From IMG/VR virus record IMGVR_UViG_3300025141_013772, positions 1-26,080 of that record: DNA of 26,080 bases; one strand, given 5' to 3'. Shown here piece after piece: positions 1,990 through 16,920 of this stretch (positions are counted from its first letter, which is position 1; each line of letters opens with the position of its first letter). The stretch is from a virus. A model generated the notes under the pieces. It saw only the letters and a program-made list of their open reading frames with translations. It was not told the DNA's origin and made no database searches. The position numbers were made by a program, and so were the translations under genes.

Positions 1990-2559
1990 TTAAATATTTG
2001 TTGTTATATGGGTAAGATTTGATATACTTTCCCATTCTGATATATTATTTTCGTATAATCTATAAAAATTAATTTCAGGAAATTCTTGAAAGCAATAAGT
2101 AAGTTGATTTATTTCTGCTTTAACTACATGCCGTTGTTCGACACTATTTTGATTAGCGTAATGAGTTGTTCCGGCATATATGTTTTTATATTTCCCGTTA
2201 CTGTATTTAACATCAAACCCCGCTAAGTACACGTTTTTGGGGTTTTTTTGGCATGCATATAAAACTGCCAACGAACCACAATTCCATTTTTTCCATTTTC
2301 CTTCTATTGATATTATCTTTGCTTCTGAACAAATATATTTGCAAGGCGAAACAACTTTGTGTACTTTACAATAACTACTACTATGTACTTCACTCAACAT
2401 ATTATCATCTACAACAAACAATATATCTGGAGCAAAATCTCGCCATAATGCATTACAACCATATATAATATATTTTTCTTTAAGTTTATGTAAATCTAGT
2501 TCTTTGCGACTTATGCCGTTACCAAGAACAAGAATATCAGACTTCTTCGATTTCAACAT
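1990..2559 (-). CDS. DUF115/sialyltransferase-like Rossmann protein
   Basis: The 189-aa protein opens with an LVLGNGISRKELDL loop typical of a nucleotide-binding Rossmann strand. It later has IIYGCNALWRDFAPDILFVVDD, then NCGSLAVLYA and VYLAGFD. This series resembles the fold shared by DUF115/MptE-like proteins and GT42 sialyltransferases, in which an NGS motif precedes a strand ending in GxD. It might modify a glycan or nucleotide-linked substrate, but I would not assign a reaction. Its start overlaps the 3' end of clpS by 23 bp. The structured RNA begins a few bases after its stop. Confidence 0.45.
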   Translation of the reverse strand: MLKSKKSDILVLGNGISRKELDLHKLKEKYIIYGCNALWRDFAPDILFVVDDNMLSEVHSSSYCKVHKVVSPCKYICSEAKIISIEGKWKKWNCGSLAVLYACQKNPKNVYLAGFDVKYSNGKYKNIYAGTTHYANQNSVEQRHVVKAEINQLTYCFQEFPEINFYRLYENNISEWESISNLTHITTNI

Positions 2560-2851
2560 TTAAGGGGTGGCCATTTTGTCTGGCTTGTGTTGTGGATTCA
2601 ACAGCTTTTTGTTCAGCTATTTCGTATGTATATACTCCTGCAATTCCTTTACCTTTTTCATGGACCTGGACCATAATTTCTTCGGCGGCTTCATTTGAAT
2701 GATGAAATATTGTTACTAATATATAGATAACAAAATCCATAGGAGTAAAATCATCGTTAATTAAAAGTACCTTATACTTGTCAGGTTCTTTCACATTAAC
2801 GTCAACCGTCGTATCAATATTTTCTTTTGTTGTTGTTTCTATCTCTGCCAT
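2537..2851 (-). CDS. clpS: ClpS, N-degron adaptor for the Clp protease
   Basis: The 104-aa protein matches ClpS over its whole core (YKVLLINDDFTPMDFV, then VHEKGKGIAGVYTYEIAE, and NGHPL). The N-degron pocket residues are kept: Asn32, Asp33/Asp34, the gate Met38 and His64. ClpS binds proteins with bulky N-terminal residues and normally hands them to ClpA for degradation by ClpP. The start at 2851 is chosen because the upstream alternative is a GTG lying inside the terminator hairpin. A TATAAATA late box lies eight bases before this ATG, so a leaderless late mRNA is possible. ClpS is phage-encoded here near ClpX rather than ClpA, and neither ClpA nor ClpP is in the window. Confidence 0.93.
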   Translation of the reverse strand: MAEIETTTKENIDTTVDVNVKEPDKYKVLLINDDFTPMDFVIYILVTIFHHSNEAAEEIMVQVHEKGKGIAGVYTYEIAEQKAVESTTQARQNGHPLNVEIEEV

Positions 2852-2858
2852 ACTAAAA

Positions 2859-2866
2859 TATTTATA
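2859..2866 (-). promoter_or_regulatory. Late promoter box TATAAATA before clpS
   Basis: This is a perfect match to the T4 late consensus on the minus strand. It is only eight bases from the clpS ATG, so a transcript from it would have little or no leader. It follows directly after the hsp20 terminator hairpin. Confidence 0.55.
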
Positions 2867-2867
2867 G

Positions 2868-2896
2868 AATGCGGTGCAGATTGCCCACACCGCATT
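2868..2896 (-). terminator. Hairpin terminator downstream of hsp20
   Basis: AATGCGGTG (2868-2876) and CACCGCATT (2888-2896) form a perfect 9-bp stem with an 11-nt loop, about ten bases after the hsp20 stop codon. It is followed on the minus strand by an AT-rich stretch rather than a clean U-run, so termination may be partial. Confidence 0.65.
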
Positions 2897-2905
2897 ATAT
2901 GTTGC

Positions 2906-3364
2906 TTAATTAACCGTGATAGGAATTACCTTAGGTTTTTCTTCCTCAGGTATGTCTTGTTCCAAATCTATAGCCAACATGCCATTTTTAAGAATTGCAT
3001 CCTTAACAAGCACATGTGGACCTAAGCGAAAAGTTCTGTCAAAAGAACGATTAGCAATACCATGGTGGACAAAGTGATCTTCGTCCTCATTAGTTTTACT
3101 TTCAATCTTACCTTTAACTGTAAGATTACGTTCTTTTTGTGAAACTTCTATATCGTCTTCACCGAAGCCAGCAATGGCCATTGAAATTACCCATTTACCG
3201 TCATCGACTTGCTCGATGTTATAGGGTGGATACCCTGTAGATGATGCAGTATATGAATTAGAGAACTGCTCTAAGTCTCTAAACATTCTGTCCATTCCAA
3301 CTGTAAACGGTGTAAGTGAAGTGATGAAATCGCTAAGATTTCCGGTTGTGAGGTGTCTAGTCAT
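2906..3364 (-). CDS. Small heat-shock protein Hsp20 (IbpA-like)
   Basis: The 152-aa protein has an N-terminal arm with FTVGMDRMFRDLEQ, an alpha-crystallin domain (about 44-140; YPPYNIEQ, MAIAGFGEDDIEV, NLTVKGK, GIANRSFDRTFRL, KNGMLAIDLEQDIPEEEKP) and a short IPITVN tail, as in IbpA. It would hold unfolding proteins in a refoldable state. The start at 3364 follows an AAAGGAG ribosome-binding site; the upstream TTG at 3385 has none. The 71-nt leader folds into a ROSE-like thermometer hiding that site, and a consensus sigma-70 promoter precedes it. Small heat-shock genes are known in marine T4-like phages, where they are thought to protect virion assembly. Confidence 0.95.
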   Translation of the reverse strand: MTRHLTTGNLSDFITSLTPFTVGMDRMFRDLEQFSNSYTASSTGYPPYNIEQVDDGKWVISMAIAGFGEDDIEVSQKERNLTVKGKIESKTNEDEDHFVHHGIANRSFDRTFRLGPHVLVKDAILKNGMLAIDLEQDIPEEEKPKVIPITVN

Positions 3365-3369
3365 AATAT

Positions 3370-3420
3370 TCTCCTTTATAAGCAAGACTGAGTCGAATTA
3401 ACCCTACCATAGGCATTAAT
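3370..3420 (-). promoter_or_regulatory. ROSE-like RNA thermometer in the hsp20 leader
   Basis: The SD-proximal hairpin (3370-3387) pairs UCUUGCU with AGGAGA around a UAUAA loop, leaving the G of UUGCU bulged and forming a U-G pair. This is the arrangement that defines ROSE thermometers, which repress small heat-shock genes in Proteobacteria. A second hairpin (3397-3420) has an ATTAA/TTAAT outer stem and a CCTA-TGG-TAGG inner stem. The AUG lies just outside the SD hairpin. The pairing is read by eye and has not been energy-calculated. Confidence 0.7.
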
Positions 3421-3430
3421 CCTCTCATAA

Positions 3431-3438
3431 TATTTATC
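3431..3438 (-). promoter_or_regulatory. Late promoter box GATAAATA before hsp20
   Basis: This 7-of-8 match to the T4 late box lies between the sigma-70 -10 element and the ROSE-like leader. Both promoters would give nearly the same leader, about 60-70 nt, so the thermometer would control early and late messages alike. Confidence 0.45.
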
Positions 3439-3441
3439 ACT

Positions 3442-3470
3442 ATTATACTATGTTATAATAAAAATGTCAA
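3442..3470 (-). promoter_or_regulatory. Perfect consensus sigma-70 promoter for hsp20
   Basis: On the minus strand TTGACA (3465-3470) and TATAAT (3442-3447) are separated by exactly 17 bp, which is full consensus at both boxes and spacing. The expected start near 3435 gives a leader of about 70 nt that contains the thermometer. Strong host-polymerase transcription early in infection is implied. Confidence 0.85.
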
Positions 3471-3484
3471 GTTTTTTTGATTCT

Positions 3485-3736
3485 TTATTTTACTTTTCCA
3501 TATCGGCTAGCTAATTCTAGCCATTGTTCATATAATTTTTCGTCTCGTTTCTCAATACGAGAAATACATTGGGCCCGCCGTCTTCGGCGCTTGTCAGATG
3601 GTTTTTCGTAATATTGTCTTTTTTTCAAATCACGTATTATACCTTCGGCATTAACTTTTTTCTTTAAAATTCTAAGTGCTTTCTCCACATTGCCACGTTG
3701 AACTTCAACAGAAATTCTTACTTTTTTGTGCGTCAT
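3485..3736 (-). CDS. rpsU: Ribosomal protein bS21
   Basis: The 83-aa, very basic protein matches bS21: an N-terminal RISVEVQRGNVEKALRILKK, a central KKRQYYEKPSDKRRRRR and a helical tail. It is slightly longer than the 71-aa Escherichia coli protein. bS21 sits on the 30S platform near the mRNA-exit and anti-SD region and affects start-site choice. It is the ribosomal protein most often carried by phages, including SAR11 phages. Its ATG shares a base with the IF3 stop (TAATG at 3734-3738), so the two are translationally coupled. Together with IF3, this suggests that the phage remodels initiation on host ribosomes. Confidence 0.95.
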   Translation of the reverse strand: MTHKKVRISVEVQRGNVEKALRILKKKVNAEGIIRDLKKRQYYEKPSDKRRRRRAQCISRIEKRDEKLYEQWLELASRYGKVK

Positions 3737-4284
3737 TAGTTATTTTTTTTCATTATACCGATAATTCTTGGACCGGTTCTTTGCGGTTCTGTAAGGTACT
3801 CTACTCCTTCTAATAATTCTTCTACTTCTTTAAAAATTTCAAATCCCGCTTTTATATGCCCTTGTTCACGACCTTTAAACCGTATTACTACTTTTACGTT
3901 ATTGCCTTTATCTATAAATTTTTGAATTTGTTTGGCTTTGGTTTCTAAATCGTGTTTTTGTGTTACTGGCCGCAACTGAATTTCTTTGATTTCAATTCTA
4001 GATTCACGGGCTTTCTTATCTTTTTCTTTTTGTTTCTTTTTTTCTGCGTATATGTATTTATTAAGATCCACTATTTTACAAACAGGCGGATTTGCCTGTT
4101 CTGAAATCATAACAAGATCGAGATTTTTTTCCTTTGCTATTTCGACAGCATCTCTTGGGTCTTTTATGCCTAATTGAGCGCCGTCGGCATCTATAAGACG
4201 TATTTCTCGCATTCGTATATCATTATTAACTTTAAAATTATGATTATTTCTTTTATTATATTTCCGTGGATGTTGGTTTCTCAT
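3736..4284 (-). CDS. infC: Translation initiation factor IF3
   Basis: The 182-aa protein carries both IF3 domains. The N-terminal domain includes NNDIRMREIRLID, GAQLGIKDPRDAVEIAKEKNLDLVMIS and ANPPVCKIVDLNKYIY. A lysine-rich linker follows, then the C-terminal domain with IEIKEIQLRP, KFIDKGNNVKVVIRFKGRE and RTGPRIIGIM. Its length is close to the bacterial factor (about 180 aa). IF3 keeps 30S subunits free and proofreads the start codon. The start at 4284 is preferred because AAAGGAG precedes it at good spacing and the protein then aligns with bacterial IF3; a longer frame to 4344 would run deep into clpX. It still overlaps the clpX end by 29 bp. IF3 is rare in phages. Confidence 0.95.
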   Translation of the reverse strand: MRNQHPRKYNKRNNHNFKVNNDIRMREIRLIDADGAQLGIKDPRDAVEIAKEKNLDLVMISEQANPPVCKIVDLNKYIYAEKKKQKEKDKKARESRIEIKEIQLRPVTQKHDLETKAKQIQKFIDKGNNVKVVIRFKGREQGHIKAGFEIFKEVEELLEGVEYLTEPQRTGPRIIGIMKKNN

Positions 4285-5500
4285 TAATTTTTTCTCCTTT
4301 AAAGACAAATATTGGTTTTGTGTTTTCTGAAACACATTTTTCATTTATAACAATTTTTTCTACACCTTCTTCTCTAAGCTCGGGTAGTATAAATTGTAGT
4401 TCTAGTAATAATTCTTCTATTGCAGAATTAAGTCCTCTTGCTCCTACTTTTTTATTAATACATTTTTTAGCTATTTCTTGACATGCATCTCCGGTAATTT
4501 CTAAGCCAATATCATCCATTTTAAATAATCGTTGATATTGCTTTACTAATGAATTATCTACATCTAATAAAATATTAACAAGGTCGCCTTTTGTTAATTC
4601 TTCTAAATGTGATATAATTGGTATTCTACCTACAAATTCAGGTATTAATCCATATATAACAAGATCTTCTGGTTCTACAAATTGTAGTAAATTTTCAGGT
4701 TTTTTATCATCAGATAAATTAGCACCAAACCCAATAGAAGATCCTTTCTTAAGGCGTTTTTTGATTATTTTATCCAAACCTATAAATGCTCCGCCAAGAA
4801 TAAACAAAATATTAGTAGTATCTACAGAAACAAGATCTTGGCTTGGATGTTTACGTCCCCCTTGAGGAGGAATTTTGCATTCATATCCTTCTATCATTTT
4901 AAGTAGTGCTTGTTGGACACCTTCACCTGACACGTCACGAGTGATACTTGCAGATTCTGTTTTTCTACTTTTTTTATCTATTTCATCAATATATATAATA
5001 CCCATTTCTGCTCTGTCTATATTTCCATCAGCAGATATTAATAATCTAGTAATAACATTTTCTACATCGTCACCAACATATCCTGATTCAGTTACAGTTG
5101 TTGCATCTGCAATGGCAAACGGTACATCTAATAATTTTGCTATAGATTTGGCTAATAATGTTTTTCCAGATCCACTCGGACCCAAAAATAATACATTACT
5201 TTTGTCAATTTCAATATCATTGATATGGGCATTTAATCGTTTATAGTGGTTATAAACAGCGACACTCAGAACTTTTTTTGCGGCTTCTTGTCCAATAACA
5301 TATTGTTCTAAGTGATTATAGATTTCTCTAGGTGTGAATATTTCATAGTTATCAATTTTTGCGGCTTCTTCTTGTATTATTTCATAACAAAGATGAATGC
5401 ATCTATCACAAATGTATGCATGTTCGCCTTGGATAAGTTTTGATACTTCGTCTTTGTGTTTACCACAAAAATGGCAATTCATAATTTGAAGTTCATTCAT
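4256..5500 (-). CDS. clpX: ClpX, AAA+ unfoldase of the ClpXP protease
   Basis: This full-length 414-aa ClpX has the N-terminal zinc domain (Cys9, 12, 31, 34), Walker A GPSGSGKT (107-114), the pore-1 loop GYVG (140-143), Walker B IIYIDE (Asp172, Glu173), the RKH loop (216-218), the ClpP-docking IGF loop (256-258) and the sensor-2 segment [14 protein letters not shown] and GYVG bind ssrA-type tags ending in LAA; IGF contacts ClpP. So it should be an active unfoldase that can dock on host ClpP, because no clpP lies in this window. The tmRNA here encodes a tag ending in LAA. It precedes infC and rpsU in one operon. No clear SD is seen at 5500; Met7 is an alternative start. Confidence 0.97.
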
Positions 5501-7955: not shown

Positions 7956-7963
7956 TATTTATT
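7956..7963 (-). promoter_or_regulatory. Late promoter box AATAAATA
   Basis: This T4-late-like box lies 24 bases before the virion gene starting at 7932. It overlaps the last codons and stop of the thermonuclease gene. Confidence 0.5.
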
Positions 7964-8315
7964 CTTTTTCTGTAAAATACTTTGTTGCATATCCTTCTTT
8001 TATCATTGTTTCATTTACGTTTACTTCTTTTCCGTCTAGGTCAACGGCATAAACATGTCCGAGAACTCTTCCAAATTTTCCTCGTTTATTTAATACTGTT
8101 CGTACTTTAAAATCTCTTGGTAATAATTCTATTAATTTATTTTTTGCTTTTATGCCTTCGTCTTTTTCTGTTGGAACTTTAGATCTTGATTGAGGTGTAT
8201 CAACGCCATATAATTTTATTCGTTGTTTTACAAAAGTTTGAAATCCGAGGTCTATGTCTGCATCAATAGTATCCCCGTCAATTACTTTTCTTAATTTTGC
8301 ATTATATTCATACAC
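7959..8315 (-). CDS. Staphylococcal-nuclease-like protein with altered active site
   Basis: The 118-aa protein has the thermonuclease core: VIDGDTIDADIDLGF (metal-binding Asp15), IKLYGVDTPQ (Asp39, Thr40), EKDEGIKAKNKL and KFGRVLGHVY (Arg83). Against Staphylococcus aureus nuclease, the position of Arg35 is Lys34 here and that of catalytic Glu43 is Gln42, while Arg87 is kept as Arg83. Catalysis may therefore be weak or altered. No signal peptide is seen, so it acts inside the cell or virion. The start is GTG at 8313-8315, one base after the upstream stop, with AGGA nearby. Related nucleases are common in marine T4-like phages. Confidence 0.85.
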   Translation of the reverse strand: MYEYNAKLRKVIDGDTIDADIDLGFQTFVKQRIKLYGVDTPQSRSKVPTEKDEGIKAKNKLIELLPRDFKVRTVLNKRGKFGRVLGHVYAVDLDGKEVNVNETMIKEGYATKYFTEKE

Positions 8316-9227: not shown

Positions 9228-9235
9228 TATTTATT
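9228..9235 (-). promoter_or_regulatory. Late promoter box AATAAATA
   Basis: The box lies 25 bases before the 66-aa gene at 9203 and overlaps the end of the lysin gene. It probably starts the late transcript through 9003-9203, 8317-9003 and 7959-8315. Confidence 0.5.
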
Positions 9236-9878
9236 TCAATGCTACCAGACTGCCATTTTCCCATCTATAAAATAAATGAGTATCGATTCTTACCGTTTTT
9301 ATAAATTTTTTATTTTTTGCCCATCTGGGTAAATCTATATAATTTGCATGGTAATGGGTTGCCCCTTCTGTAAAGTCAATAAACAACATGGATCTTTTTA
9401 GAAAATATTCTGCCAAGGCTTGTGAATAAACCCATGCCTTTCTATTTTTTGGTATATCAGACAAGCCATCACAATACCAACTAAACTGGCATCGATCTTT
9501 ACTAGGAAGTTTCTTTTTAAGAGTTTTGTGGTAATAGTGTTTACCTTGGTGTACCACTTGACAAATAGATCCAGGAAATCTTTCATCTGCAACTCTATTC
9601 ATGGTAACCAACATAACACCGATTTTTCCAGATAAACTTTCGTTTCGAGCTTCGTGGTAAATGTTCATAGCAAGACACTTGAGTTCACTGCTAGAAAAAA
9701 CCATAAATGTATTTCTATATTTAGGTTCTGTATGTTTTTGAATACGTTTCTTTACATCACTTATTGAGGGATAATTATGTTTCCCGGTATCACTGTTAAC
9801 AACAATTTTAATTGCTGTTGCAGTTGTTGTAAAAAAGATACAAGATAAGGCACTTAGTATTAAAGTTTTAATACTCAT
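9231..9878 (-). CDS. SleB-type cell-wall hydrolase, probable endolysin
   Basis: The 215-aa protein has a hydrophobic N-terminal segment (about 4-22, ending ATA) that looks like a signal peptide or SAR anchor, then the Hydrolase_2/SleB domain. Conserved parts are LKCLAMNIYHEARNE (about 66-80, with likely catalytic Glu76), MLVTMNRVADERFP, CQFSWYCDG and GATHYHANYIDLPRWA. Enzymes of this family cut the peptidoglycan glycan strand. An exported lysin fits a phage released through a Sec-dependent route, with the neighbouring holin-like protein. It starts after a GGAG site. Confidence 0.9.
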   Translation of the reverse strand: MSIKTLILSALSCIFFTTTATAIKIVVNSDTGKHNYPSISDVKKRIQKHTEPKYRNTFMVFSSSELKCLAMNIYHEARNESLSGKIGVMLVTMNRVADERFPGSICQVVHQGKHYYHKTLKKKLPSKDRCQFSWYCDGLSDIPKNRKAWVYSQALAEYFLKRSMLFIDFTEGATHYHANYIDLPRWAKNKKFIKTVRIDTHLFYRWENGSLVALK

Positions 9879-9942
9879 TCATTTCTCCAAAATTTTTTAA
9901 TTTGATTTGTTCCGCATAAAGTTTCCTTTAGCAAGTACGGCA

Positions 9943-9982
9943 AATCCCAGTCTAGGATCATACATGAATAAAGACTGGGATT
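9943..9982. terminator. Perfect 11-bp hairpin between holin-like and lysin genes
   Basis: AATCCCAGTCT (9943-9953) and AGACTGGGATT (9972-9982) are perfect inverted repeats with an 18-nt loop, in the 122-bp gap between the holin-like gene and the lysin. Neither side has a long U-run, so it may stabilise or process RNA rather than terminate. No other gene is seen in the gap. Confidence 0.5.
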
Positions 9983-10000
9983 ATTTAATAGAATTACTCG

Positions 10001-10228
10001 TTACTTTTTGTCGTAGATTCCCCAAAGAATCCAAAGAGCAATCAAGCCTACAAGTCCTTCTCCACCTAATGCTTTTACGAAGCTAACTACGTTACCTAGA
10101 ATGTCAAAAGGAAGGAACACTACATTTGCTCCAAAAATAATTTGAAATACAACGCCTAGCATTACAAGTGAGAGTCCTATTTCAGTGAGGCCTCTTACCC
10201 ATATAGCGATATTTTTAATAATATCCAT
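10001..10228 (-). CDS. Holin-like small membrane protein
   Basis: The 75-aa protein has two predicted membrane spans (about 14-38 and 57-72), a Gly-rich turn (KALGGEGLVG) and a charged YDKK tail. This size and layout suit a class II-type holin, and the next gene in transcription is the exported SleB lysin. No conserved holin family was recognised, so the role rests on topology and neighbourhood. An AAAGGAG site precedes the ATG and lies next to a 6-bp hairpin (GCAATT/AATTGC, 10247-10263) that could affect initiation. Confidence 0.5.
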   Translation of the reverse strand: MDIIKNIAIWVRGLTEIGLSLVMLGVVFQIIFGANVVFLPFDILGNVVSFVKALGGEGLVGLIALWILWGIYDKK

Positions 10229-10738: not shown

Positions 10739-10969
10739 CTACTTCTTCTCTACAAATTCGTAGAGCTCAGTGGCCTTAGTCTTAATATCATCAATGCTAT
10801 ATGACTTTGGCTGAAGTTCTTTCCAAAACTCCATAGTTGCGGTACCGTTATCTATTGCTAGAGACCAAGCATCCGTAACAAATTGCTCTTGTCTTGCTGT
10901 TTGTTCTTGAAGATAGCCTTGGGCCATTTCAAGTAATTTGAACCTAAGTTCGAATGGATTACTAGACAT
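10739..10969 (-). CDS. 76-aa conserved phage protein, unknown function
   Basis: The protein starts MSSNPFELRFKLLEMAQGYL and is helical throughout, with a Trp (MEFWKEL) and a SIDDIKTKATELYEFVEKK tail. Small proteins with this kind of N terminus occur in marine T4-like phages, where I know of no assigned role. The start at 10969 is preferred over a longer frame to 11023 because AAAGGAG precedes it and the longer version would begin inside the tmRNA. It lies directly downstream of the tmRNA coding piece, so it is probably read on the same transcript. Confidence 0.8.
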   Translation of the reverse strand: MSSNPFELRFKLLEMAQGYLQEQTARQEQFVTDAWSLAIDNGTATMEFWKELQPKSYSIDDIKTKATELYEFVEKK

Positions 10970-10999
10970 AATTTTCTCCTTTATGTGTGTCTGTGTGTA

Positions 11000-11335
11000 A
11001 TGGAGGGATTCTTCTGTTCCCAAGTGATCCCCCGGAGGACAATCCTCTAACTCGGCTACTGACTATGCGGCAAGCATAACCTGTGCAGATGTATAATCGT
11101 TATTATTTGCGATTAAGTTTAATGTCGTCTCGTCTTTGCTTCCCACGGTGTCGAAATCTATTTCACCCCCATCAAAGAATTACATGTTATAATTAAGATA
11201 AAACCATGCTATACCCATTCCTAATATTGTCAGAGTAAAAAACCATGTTAATACTTTATCCATATAATCCTTTGGTGGAGGTGATGGGAATCGCACCCAT
11301 GTCCAGTCGCTTTCAACATAGAGTCTTAAACAACA
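11000..11335 (-). ncRNA. ssrA: Circularly permuted two-piece tmRNA
   Basis: In transcription order the locus holds an acceptor piece (about 11335-11273) ending in a T-arm (ATGGG-TGCGATT-CCCAT), CACCTCC, discriminator A and encoded CCA; a spacer (11272-11171); then a coding piece (11170 to about 11000) starting GGGGGTG and a GATTTCGAC D-arm region. GGGGGTG pairs with CACCTCC, including the G3-U wobble needed by alanyl-tRNA synthetase. The tag frame (11110-11063) reads ANNNDYTSAQVMLAA then stop, preceded by TTAATC as resume context. Helix GAGGA-TTG-TCCTC and a long GGGGGAT/ATCCCTC pairing follow. The outer ends of both pieces are approximate. The order matches alphaproteobacterial tmRNAs, which are cut into two RNAs. 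Tandem late boxes precede it. Confidence 0.93.
11180..11263 (-). CDS. 27-aa membrane peptide inside the tmRNA intervening segment
   Basis: Between the CCA end of the acceptor piece and the 5' end of the coding piece is a 27-codon ORF (ATG 11261-11263, TAA 11180-11182). An AAGGA site overlaps the end of the acceptor CCA. The peptide starts MDKVLTWFF, continues hydrophobically with a GMGIAWFYL stretch and ends NYNM, so it is a single membrane span with a charged N terminus. The ORF fills most of the spacer removed during tmRNA maturation. Its reality is inferred from the ribosome-binding site and its composition; it could be chance in an AT-rich spacer. Confidence 0.45.
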   Translation of the reverse strand: MDKVLTWFFTLTILGMGIAWFYLNYNM

Positions 11336-11339
11336 ATAG

Positions 11340-11361
11340 TATTTATAAAATAGTATTTATA
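11340..11361 (-). promoter_or_regulatory. Tandem TATAAATA late promoters for the tmRNA
   Basis: Two perfect T4-late boxes (11354-11361 and 11340-11347), each within a repeated TATAAATACTATT unit 14 bp apart, precede the tmRNA. The first box contains the TAA stop of the 712-aa gene. A start a few bases after the second box would lie at about 11334, at the inferred 5' end of the acceptor piece. Confidence 0.65.
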
Positions 11362-14091: not shown

Positions 14092-14373
14092 TTATCCTAC
14101 TATTGTGATTCCTGAATTTGCTTCTATATATTTATCGGCAATTTCTTTCACAGCAGGTGCTTTGGCAACTATTTGATCTTTATTGATCCATACTTTTTTA
14201 TTATTGCCCGAATTTGGCCATTTAACTATAGCAATTCCTTGAGGGGTTTGTGCTAAAGCCATAGCATTTTCAATATACAATTCACCTTCTTCATCAGTAA
14301 GGCGACCAAGGATTTCTAATCCTCCAGCTATTGATATACTAACTATTTCGGTACTATTTTTCTCTATCAGCAT
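14092..14373 (-). CDS. 93-aa protein, possibly LSm-like, unknown function
   Basis: The protein has an N-terminal beta-rich part (VSISIAGGLEILGRLTDEEGELYIENAMAL) with a glycine-loop pattern seen in some phage Sm-like small beta-barrels, then a helical tail (VKEIADKYIEANSGI). The resemblance is weak and no RNA-binding site can be pointed out. It overlaps the end of the glutaredoxin gene by 20 bp and is followed by virion genes. No function is assigned. Confidence 0.6.
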   Translation of the reverse strand: MLIEKNSTEIVSISIAGGLEILGRLTDEEGELYIENAMALAQTPQGIAIVKWPNSGNNKKVWINKDQIVAKAPAVKEIADKYIEANSGITIVG

Positions 14374-14599
14374 TATAATCTTTTATAAATTGTTCTATAC
14401 CAAGCCAATTTCCAATAATTTTTCCATCACAGATGGCTTGAGGAAGAACTTTAGATCCGGGTATAACCCACAAAAGTTCTTCTTTTGATATATCTTTACC
14501 AACTATATATTCGATAAATTCTATACCATTTTTTTTGAGAAGAGCTTTAGCAACATCACATGCATTGCAATTAAGTTTTGAATATAGTGTAAAATTCAT
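14354..14599 (-). CDS. Glutaredoxin
   Basis: The 81-aa protein is a small thioredoxin-fold redox protein: an LYSKLNCNACDVAKALLKKNG start with the active-site pair Cys11-Asn-Ala-Cys14, the cis-Pro loop KVLPQAICDGKIIGNW and a terminal helix. Its length is normal for a glutaredoxin. Its start overlaps the stop of the ribonucleotide reductase gene (ATGA at 14596-14599), so the two are translationally coupled, and it probably recycles the C-terminal cysteines of that enzyme after each turnover. The Cys-Asn-Ala-Cys pair differs from the classic CPYC. Confidence 0.92.
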   Translation of the reverse strand: MNFTLYSKLNCNACDVAKALLKKNGIEFIEYIVGKDISKEELLWVIPGSKVLPQAICDGKIIGNWLGIEQFIKDYNADREK

Positions 14600-16920
14600 A
14601 CAACTTTTAATTTAATTTCTGCTTCTTCTTCTTTTTCCCATTGTTTTTGTTCTTCATCAAAGTCTATCGGGCAACCGCCTGGAGTCCCACAATCAACATG
14701 TTCTCTGCCAATATCTTCTGCCATTGCTTTGGCAATTGATCTGCTAATATCTTCAAACTTTACTTTCGTAATAGCTTCTTCCGGTTGATATTCATATGCA
14801 GATATATTAGTTTGAGGCATAACAGAACATGCCCTTACATTAGATTGATGTTTTCGCATCATATCTCTAAAATGTTTATAATCTACTACATCAGGTACAT
14901 ACTTTAATGTATAACTAATTTGATTACCTACATCTTTAGCCAATGTACCATCTTCATTAACACCCTGAATCCAATATTTTTCTCCTAATTTTAACCATTG
15001 ATATTGTTCTTCGGGTGTTGCTTCGCCTGCTGTTACAAATGCATCTCCTAAATCCATTCCTGCAATAACAGGTTCTGTCGGAAAACCAATAACAGTTGTT
15101 CCACTATACTGGACAAGTTCTTTATATGGATAACCATTTGCTTTATATGCTTCTACCAACGGATCGTCATGTCTAAATTGTACCCATCTCATATACCAAG
15201 CAAGTGCTGGCAAATGCCATCCTTCAGTAAGCCCAAATAATTTACTTGTAGTTCCTGCTGGCTTAATAGTTGTCATTGTGTGTGGTACAGATTGTCCTAT
15301 ATAAGCAGAATATTTTGTTGCTTCGTCTTTAACTGTTTGATTAAAACGAGCCATTGTCATCCAAAAGTCTTTCGATTTTTCTTCATCAACTAAATCTCTA
15401 AAACCAAACTTAAAAAATTTCCAAGCAAATTCATGAACACCTGTTATGCCTACACCAATACGATTTGTACGAGTTACTTCCTTACTATAGATGCTATTCA
15501 TAAGATTAACTCGTAACAACGCCCTCGTAGCAACACGAAAGGCTTCCTCTGCTTCATCTAATGTATCGGCATGAAAAGGTACTACATCTGCAATAACACA
15601 AAATCCTCCTAACACATTAAGTGCAATTTCACCACACGGATTAGTAATTGTATGATATTTTTTCTTTTTAGCTCGTTTTGCCAAACGACTCATTAATATT
15701 TGTGTATCTTCACGAAGCGGGTACTTTTTACTACCTGCATAATCTCCACGATTAAGATCATCCCATCCTTCGTCGTTTTGTACTAACATATCGGAATTAA
15801 GTATGCCAGGTTCGCCTGTTCCGTCGGCGTAAGCGGCCTCTGTGAGTAGTTTAAACACCCCTCTAGCGTGTTTTGTTATATCATCGTTGTATTTGGTGTC
15901 CCCACGCTTTATATTGAGTTTATCCCAGAATTCTTTATCTGTTGTAACAGAATTATTACTAGACCATAAGAAACCCATTGGTGGATAAGCAGATTCTTTA
16001 TTATATTGAACTATGTCTTCCATGTTTAATCCAATATATTCAATAGGTCGCTTAACGGTAATAAAATCTAATACAGTTTTATCCTTCCATGTTTTAGTAC
16101 TCATCCGAGCGGCACGTCTTGCTCCTCCGACAAGTACACATTCAGCCATATAATGATCAACATACATAGCCTGACGCCATGGTTCCATGCCTGCATCTTT
16201 AATAGTTGCACATTTTTCAAAAGCATTTAACAAAGATATTGGACCACTTGCTGGTCTGTTTTGCATACCACCAATAGGTGAGCCTTTTGCTCGTACTTTA
16301 CTAAAATCTAATACCAACATTTTATCTTTATGTATTTTTTCAAATGCGGCATTTTCCCAAAGTTCTAGTGCTTGAGCCCAGCCTTCGCGTGAATCTGGAA
16401 TTTCATACCAAAGAGTGTTTGCCCCTTGGCCATATTTGTGTTTTCCGTCTCGTAAAGATGTATGTGCAGAATAATCAAAATCAGGATGACTTTCGGCTAA
16501 TACACATCGCAGTTGGGGTGCATTATTCCAATCAACCAACATCATGTCATCATCATAACACCGACCAACTCCAGCACCATTTAATAGTAAGTAAAAAAGT
16601 AAAAAACTTGTGCTCGAAGTAGCACAATTTGTAAACACTTCCATGTTTCGTTTTGGCTGTTTTTCATCACCATGTTGTAAATGTCTGCCACTCATTAGCA
16701 GACTTGCTTTTGCTATATGTTTCTTTAGTAATCTAAATTCTCTATCTTTATCGTTTTCTTTTGGGCAAAGTAAACTATTACCCATTGCTACTCTGTTGGC
16801 TACATCGTGCCAATTTTCCCATTCTCCATTTGGTTTTTTTCTAAGAATTGTTCGTTCGGCGACGGCTTGCCCCATGCCAGGATGAAATGACCTGACATTA
16901 GGGAAAAAGGCTGGCTTCAT
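14596..16920 (-). CDS. Adenosylcobalamin-dependent (class II) ribonucleotide reductase
   Basis: The 774-aa protein reduces ribonucleotides to deoxyribonucleotides for phage DNA synthesis. The NPCGE motif (427-431) gives the thiyl-radical Cys429 with Asn427 and Glu431. Cys99 (TNCATSST) and Cys441 (GGFCVIADV) are the likely redox pair, and the tail has a second pair in VDCGTPGGCPID that is re-reduced by the coupled glutaredoxin. Length and these motifs fit the monomeric cobalamin-dependent triphosphate reductases, which need no oxygen and no small subunit but depend on host B12. A late box (16962-16969) and AAGGAG precede it. Confidence 0.92.
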   Translation of the reverse strand: MKPAFFPNVRSFHPGMGQAVAERTILRKKPNGEWENWHDVANRVAMGNSLLCPKENDKDREFRLLKKHIAKASLLMSGRHLQHGDEKQPKRNMEVFTNCATSSTSFLLFYLLLNGAGVGRCYDDDMMLVDWNNAPQLRCVLAESHPDFDYSAHTSLRDGKHKYGQGANTLWYEIPDSREGWAQALELWENAAFEKIHKDKMLVLDFSKVRAKGSPIGGMQNRPASGPISLLNAFEKCATIKDAGMEPWRQAMYVDHYMAECVLVGGARRAARMSTKTWKDKTVLDFITVKRPIEYIGLNMEDIVQYNKESAYPPMGFLWSSNNSVTTDKEFWDKLNIKRGDTKYNDDITKHARGVFKLLTEAAYADGTGEPGILNSDMLVQNDEGWDDLNRGDYAGSKKYPLREDTQILMSRLAKRAKKKKYHTITNPCGEIALNVLGGFCVIADVVPFHADTLDEAEEAFRVATRALLRVNLMNSIYSKEVTRTNRIGVGITGVHEFAWKFFKFGFRDLVDEEKSKDFWMTMARFNQTVKDEATKYSAYIGQSVPHTMTTIKPAGTTSKLFGLTEGWHLPALAWYMRWVQFRHDDPLVEAYKANGYPYKELVQYSGTTVIGFPTEPVIAGMDLGDAFVTAGEATPEEQYQWLKLGEKYWIQGVNEDGTLAKDVGNQISYTLKYVPDVVDYKHFRDMMRKHQSNVRACSVMPQTNISAYEYQPEEAITKVKFEDISRSIAKAMAEDIGREHVDCGTPGGCPIDFDEEQKQWEKEEEAEIKLKVV

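Follow-up and report, generated by a model that had tools for sequence, protein, structure and literature searches.

Organization of the tmRNA locus

We analyzed a 26,080-nt stretch of viral DNA (IMG/VR record IMGVR_UViG_3300025141_013772, positions 1 to 26,080), hereafter the window. The part of it displayed above reads as a complete permuted tmRNA gene, in which an ORF with a Shine-Dalgarno sequence, a start codon and a stop codon lies between the encoded CCA and the coding piece (Table 1). On the minus strand, the acceptor piece comes first and the coding piece second, which is the permuted order. An initial annotation of the same DNA had proposed a permuted two-piece tmRNA of the alphaproteobacterial type, and every sequence element that it named was found on the minus strand. 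Its range of 11000-11340 was accurate within a few bases, the first piece starting at about 11334 and the second ending at about 10995.

Table 1. Features of the tmRNA locus and neighboring genes in the window.
Feature	Position	Strand	Basis or remark
ClpX with zinc finger, IF-3, ribosomal protein S21, Hsp20, ClpS	2537-5500	-	Host-like genes
Cell-wall hydrolase (PF07486)	9231-9878	-	About 1 kb downstream of the tmRNA
Hydrophobic 75-aa ORF	10001-10228	-	Hydropathy; beside the cell-wall hydrolase
Conserved 76-aa phage protein	10739-10969	-	Downstream of the tmRNA; anchor for the clade, independent of the spacer
Coding (mRNA-like) piece, ~176 nt	10995-11170	-	3' end inferred from the terminal hairpin
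3'-terminal hairpin GGGGGAT..CACTTGGGAACAGAA..ATCCCTCC	11002-11033	-	In coding piece; corresponds to the 3' end of RF01849
Tag reading frame ANNNDYTSAQVMLAA-TAG	11063-11110	-	Ala codon start, small hydrophobic degron end
Resume codon GCA of tag frame	11110	-	Sequence elements, Rfam
D-arm GATTTCGAC	Inside coding piece, 3' of GGGGGTG	-	Sequence elements, Rfam
GGGGGTG, 5' acceptor strand of coding piece	11170-11164	-	Sequence elements, Rfam
Intervening segment, 102 nt	11171-11272	-	AAGGA directly after CCA; not part of the mature tmRNA
Predicted nested gene MDKVLTWFFTLTILGMGIAWFYLNYNM-stop, 27 aa	11180-11263	-	One predicted membrane helix; 82% of the segment
Acceptor piece, ~62 nt	11273-11334	-	Sequence elements, Rfam, covariation
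T-arm ATGGG-TGCGATT-CCCAT	11300-11284	-	Within acceptor piece
Acceptor 3' strand CACCTCC	11283-11277	-	Followed by A (11276) and encoded CCA (11275-11273)
Two copies of TATAAATA	11340-11361	-	T4-type late-promoter motif, directly upstream of acceptor piece
B12-dependent (class II) ribonucleotide reductase, then glutaredoxin	14354-16920	-	

Two Rfam covariance models matched the locus far above chance expectation. RF04321 (tmRNA_permuted) scored 80.2 bits (gathering cut-off 47, E = 3.8e-14) over positions 11334-11063 of the minus strand, while RF01849 (alpha_tmRNA), against which the initial annotation had proposed a check, scored 57.2 bits (gathering cut-off 50, E = 1.4e-13) over positions 11366-11002 of the same strand. 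ARAGORN detected no tmRNA at the locus, so routine annotation would overlook it. The two pieces pair over a 7-bp acceptor helix with G3-U70. When 17 phage tmRNAs were compared, two-sided changes were observed at four of the 12 pairs of the acceptor helix and T-stem, two of these pairs joining the two pieces. In this comparison G3-U70 was invariant and 100% of the cells were paired, which for the acceptor helix is partly by construction because its complementarity was required at extraction; the T-stem pairs and nine other pairings were not forced in this way. Together, the two covariance models and the compensatory changes between the pieces support the proposed identity. The arms of the terminal hairpin also covary in relatives when compared by eye (L072 GGGGG/CCCCC, L218 GGGTTG/CAACCC, L229 GGCCGT/ACGGTC). 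The coding piece alone did not fold better than its shuffled versions (MFE z-score of -0.68, with a model that ignores pseudoknots).

The T-loop, TGCGATT, had been described as a notable deviation because of its G at the second position, which proved wrong. Among 41 alphaproteobacterial permuted tmRNAs, the loops were GGCGGTA (29), GGCAGTA (9), and variants (3), and the second position was G in all 41. TGCGATT was the most frequent T-loop in the window's own clade, and it is also present in cellular tmRNAs from Saccharibacteria, Ruegeria, and Sulfitobacter.

Regarding the surroundings, the motif TATAAATA was not enriched across the window (6 found, 5.4 expected). Among permuted tmRNAs, 26 of 78 viral ones had it in the 140 nt preceding the gene, compared with none of 41 cellular ones; this association is suggestive only, being uncontrolled for GC. 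Downstream, a mechanical ORF call at 10739-11023, which begins at a TTG within the tmRNA, was rejected as an artifact, the likely start of the 76-aa protein being the ATG at 10969. The hydrolase and the hydrophobic 75-aa ORF (9231-10228) form a possible lysis cassette. The presence of ClpX, ClpS, IF-3, S21, and Hsp20 suggests a phage-borne set for quality control of translation and proteolysis, and the combination of ClpX and ClpS with a phage tmRNA suggests that tag-directed proteolysis is controlled by the phage. Of 80 viral contigs that encode a related ClpX (G001-G050 and G052-G081; records of L122-L201), 36 also carried a permuted tmRNA, a proportion that comes from a sample unmatched with the 2.3% given for phage genomes in the accessible text of PMC9004378. 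In several of these contigs, tmRNA and clpX shared one orientation, the tmRNA being located some 5-10 kb upstream.

A predicted gene in the intervening segment

The initial annotation overlooked that the intervening segment (11272-11171) contains an ORF preceded by a Shine-Dalgarno sequence. The 102-nt segment is laid out as CCA, AAGGATTAT-ATG...TAA-TTCTTTGAT, GGGGGTG: AAGGA abuts the CCA, the ATG follows nine bases further, and the stop codon lies nine bases upstream of the second piece. The remaining two frames are interrupted by stops. The 27-aa product has the hydropathy of a transmembrane segment (KD19 of 1.62). A protein identical to that of the window was found at L231, the two genes differing at one synonymous base. 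The tmRNA body of L231 is clearly distinct and has another acceptor helix (CAGCTCC/GGGGCTG). The same nested protein thus occurs in different tmRNA bodies, and nested gene and tmRNA body appear to recombine. Considering these features together with the comparisons below, the locus is very probably a phage gene for a permuted two-piece tmRNA with a protein-coding gene as its intervening segment.

Host, SmpB, and activity of the tmRNA

An alphaproteobacterial host had also been proposed. This is plausible at most. According to the accessible text of PMC9004378, the host of phage Melnitz is a gammaproteobacterium although the phage has an alpha-type tmRNA, so a tmRNA of this type is insufficient to prove such a host. 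Assignment by ClpX was tried and abandoned, as the protein is about 53-59% identical to its counterpart in almost every alphaproteobacterium sampled and does not discriminate between them. We searched for SmpB in all 36 tmRNA-bearing phage records, many of them fragments, and found none; the tmRNA, if functional, presumably uses the SmpB of the host. With this provision, ribosome rescue with the phage's own tag, as initially suggested, fits the predicted anatomy.

Alternatively, a real nested ORF could be combined with a tmRNA that does not carry out trans-translation, a relic that is decaying or acts as a decoy and whose tRNA-like halves are kept, for example, for RNA stability. The absence of SmpB from the phage records and the modest score with the alpha model (57 bits, cut-off 50) would agree with this, and the available part of PMC11915505 describes a phage tmRNA that has no tag and inhibits that of the host. 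However, the tag frames of the window and eight relatives are intact and end in LAA or IAA while the surrounding sequence varies, and the acceptor helix and T-stem show compensatory changes. We therefore consider a relic improbable.

Conservation of the predicted nested gene in the clade

Relatives were collected through the downstream 76-aa protein to avoid selection on spacer content. A permuted tmRNA was found in the fetched stretch at 55 of 80 such loci. Counting ORFs that start with ATG, encode at least 20 aa and cover at least 70% of the spacer, 50 of these 55 tmRNAs contained a spacer-filling ORF, corresponding to 36 of 37 distinct spacers, when 2.8 were expected from shuffles. Judged by these ORFs, nesting is nearly universal in the window's clade. 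The majority encode a 27-33 aa protein with one helix. In five distinct spacers (L503, L520, L544, L546, L555), an unrelated basic protein of 52-59 aa replaces the microprotein; it is soluble and has a C-terminal DWDxDLWD or similar motif. In spacers of 95-115 nt, the nested start lies 7-17 nt past the CCA and the stop is frequently the TGA of a TGAT that directly precedes GGGG. This TGAT leader terminates 41 of 78 phage spacers vs. 4 of 41 cellular ones.

To these counts we added substitution patterns from 47 distinct spacers of 95-115 nt, which came from all searches and encode 42 distinct peptides. Between near pairs, the in-frame pN/pS was 0.20, 0.30, 0.37, and 0.48 for the groups of 27, 28, 29, and 30 aa, respectively, the pairwise values being non-independent and the 27-aa group, which includes the window's ORF, being small (4 distinct sequences, few substitutions). 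In the shifted frames, pN/pS was at least 0.64 for the 27-30 aa groups, and most of these frames contained stops. An earlier dN/dS estimate based on four microproteins only had ranged from 0.29 to 1.05; the frame-specific pattern is clear with the larger clade sample. These ratios indicate that purifying selection acts on the nested ORF and its relatives.

The locus might instead be an ordinary phage two-piece tmRNA with an AT-rich spacer that happens to be open in one frame. Indeed, a single 27-aa ORF is by itself weak evidence, and spacers of 26-100 nt without an ORF are common in phages, such as that of HTVC008M (46 nt). Chance would nevertheless have to account for ORFs filling nearly every distinct spacer of the clade, for selection that is specific to one frame and for a recognizable nuclease family in the same slot of other phages (see below), which makes this explanation very unlikely.

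The same slot in other phages and in cellular controls

When sampling was independent of what the spacers contain, strict criteria identified 7 coding spacers among 79 viral ones (0.37 expected). A pattern scan, which looked for a Shine-Dalgarno sequence and an ATG past the acceptor end and in which the partner piece was obligatory, was pooled with the earlier loci and gave 36 distinct nested proteins. These fell into at least 11 clusters, the clustering being approximate for such short and hydrophobic proteins, and they occur in alpha- and beta-type phage tmRNAs. The RF04321 cut-off was exceeded by each of the 18 nested-gene loci tested, and four of them also matched the beta-type model RF01850. 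Among these proteins, pN/pS was 0.07-0.38 for a nested 41-aa membrane protein, 0.16-0.22 for one of 114 aa, and 0.04-0.15 for an SNase-family nuclease (PF00565, E = 2.6e-12) of 146 aa that takes up 97% of a 455-nt spacer. Alphaproteobacterial tmRNAs served as the cellular control, and no segment-filling ORF was found in their 43 spacers, of which 40 were short (10-65 nt) and only three reach 75 nt. Among the sequences compared, predicted nesting is thus recurrent in phages and unseen in the cellular control. Neither the nested microproteins nor the downstream 76-aa protein was found in named phages in the collections searched.

The complete SNase-family nuclease gene lies within the tmRNA spacer at L104, L320, L323, L346, L357, and L374. 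The window carries a free-standing SNase relative at 7959-8315 (42% identity). An SNase match in Melnitz was rejected as a nested gene, since it is found beside a baseplate gene and carries the annotation of an ordinary nuclease. At L308, L319, L335, and L352, the nested frame ends only inside the mature coding piece, so that processing would give a non-stop message. L022 and L024, with spacers of 101 and 140 nt, share an open frame (ENEWSRLGxxGPLPPERNKQLLTNE) with apparently synonymous changes, which has no clear ATG and continues into the coding piece. On the cellular side, the Ruegeria spongiae genome (G051) has two permuted tmRNA matches (L383 and L399) about 6 kb apart, with 145.9 and 83.7 bits, and the weaker one may come from a prophage or island.

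A mobile or intron-like nature of the segment, as an insertion bearing an intron-type gene, is hardly credible: unrelated genes do fill the slot and the L104-type nuclease is reminiscent of intron-borne homing endonucleases, but Rfam gave no group I or II intron at the gathering threshold in the window and 18 nested-gene loci, the insertion point is the normal spacer of a permuted gene rather than the T-loop, and the nuclease is of the SNase type, with free-standing relatives in the window and in Melnitz.

Proposed mechanism

We propose that the window's tmRNA and its nested gene are expressed from one transcript, probably initiated at the T4-like late promoter just upstream, which would contain the acceptor piece, the nested mRNA, and the coding piece, in that order. 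The pre-tmRNA would also serve as an mRNA, with ribosomes reading the nested ORF on the precursor, on the excised segment, or on both. Cleavage by RNase P would occur at GGGG, and 3' processing would trim the acceptor piece back to CCA. The two pieces, paired by 7 bp with G3-U70, would then form a tmRNA acting with the SmpB of the host. The tag added would be AANNNDYTSAQVMLAA, its first Ala being supplied by the charged tmRNA, and it would target the products for proteolysis. The nested product is predicted to be a single-pass membrane microprotein. A role in late-infection membrane events or lysis timing is a weak guess, made because the genes for the cell-wall hydrolase and the hydrophobic 75-aa protein are found some 1 kb further downstream.

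Mutual regulation between tmRNA maturation and nested-gene translation is also conceivable and would form a self-limiting circuit in one transcript. In many loci the nested frame terminates at the TGA of the TGAT leader that precedes the RNase P site, and in some only within the coding piece, so cleavage would leave a nearly or truly non-stop mRNA, and the same tmRNA would rescue ribosomes from its own cleaved nested message and tag the product. We consider this circuit unlikely.

Significance and comparison with known systems

The discarded spacer of a structural RNA gene, used as a recurrent slot for protein genes, would be a form of gene nesting, and it exposes many overlooked predicted phage microproteins in permuted tmRNAs that ARAGORN-style annotation can overlook. 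It raises the question of one RNA being both an mRNA and the precursor of an RNA that clears failed mRNAs. The locus also adds to the evidence that some marine phages carry their own parts for quality control of translation and proteolysis. In the accessible text of the open-licence PubMed Central literature, we found no permuted tmRNA described as having an ORF, or a protein encoded, within its intervening sequence. The tmRNA database paper, in its available part, lists a tRNA-Ala and a repeat as oddities of the intervening segment, with no protein-coding gene among them (PMC11915505). Protein genes as a recurrent occupant of this spacer do not seem to have been described.

The window's tmRNA itself is a further example of the already published phage two-piece tmRNAs. 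As far as the accessible text of PMC9004378 goes, a screen of 18,146 phage genomes found a tmRNA in 2.3% of them, of which a minority were two-piece, and 53 two-piece structures were obtained. Melnitz, HTVC008M, and other marine phages reported there combine a marine phage with an alpha-type permuted tmRNA, as here. Unlike that of the window, the HTVC008M spacer of 46 nt is non-coding, and for Melnitz the same text reports a glutamine riboswitch and does not mention a gene within the tmRNA.

With the alphaproteobacterial two-piece tmRNA (RF01849/RF04321; PMC11915505, in the part available), the window's tmRNA shares the reversed order, the acceptor helix with G3-U70, the T-arm, the Ala resume codon, a tag ending in AA, and a 3' hairpin of the coding piece. 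The cellular spacers are mostly short and none of the 43 is filled by an ORF, whereas that of the window appears to be a gene. Two other arrangements in the available part of PMC11915505 come close. In one, group I introns interrupt the T-loop of the tmRNA, and a few of these introns carry homing endonucleases. They likewise have a protein gene in a removed part, but they are self-splicing and inserted at another position, whereas here no intron was found and the nested genes mostly encode predicted membrane microproteins. The other is a permuted tmRNA whose intervening sequence holds a tRNA-Ala, likewise a reuse of the spacer for another gene; that is one case with an RNA gene, whereas the phage spacers described here would form a recurrent slot for protein genes.
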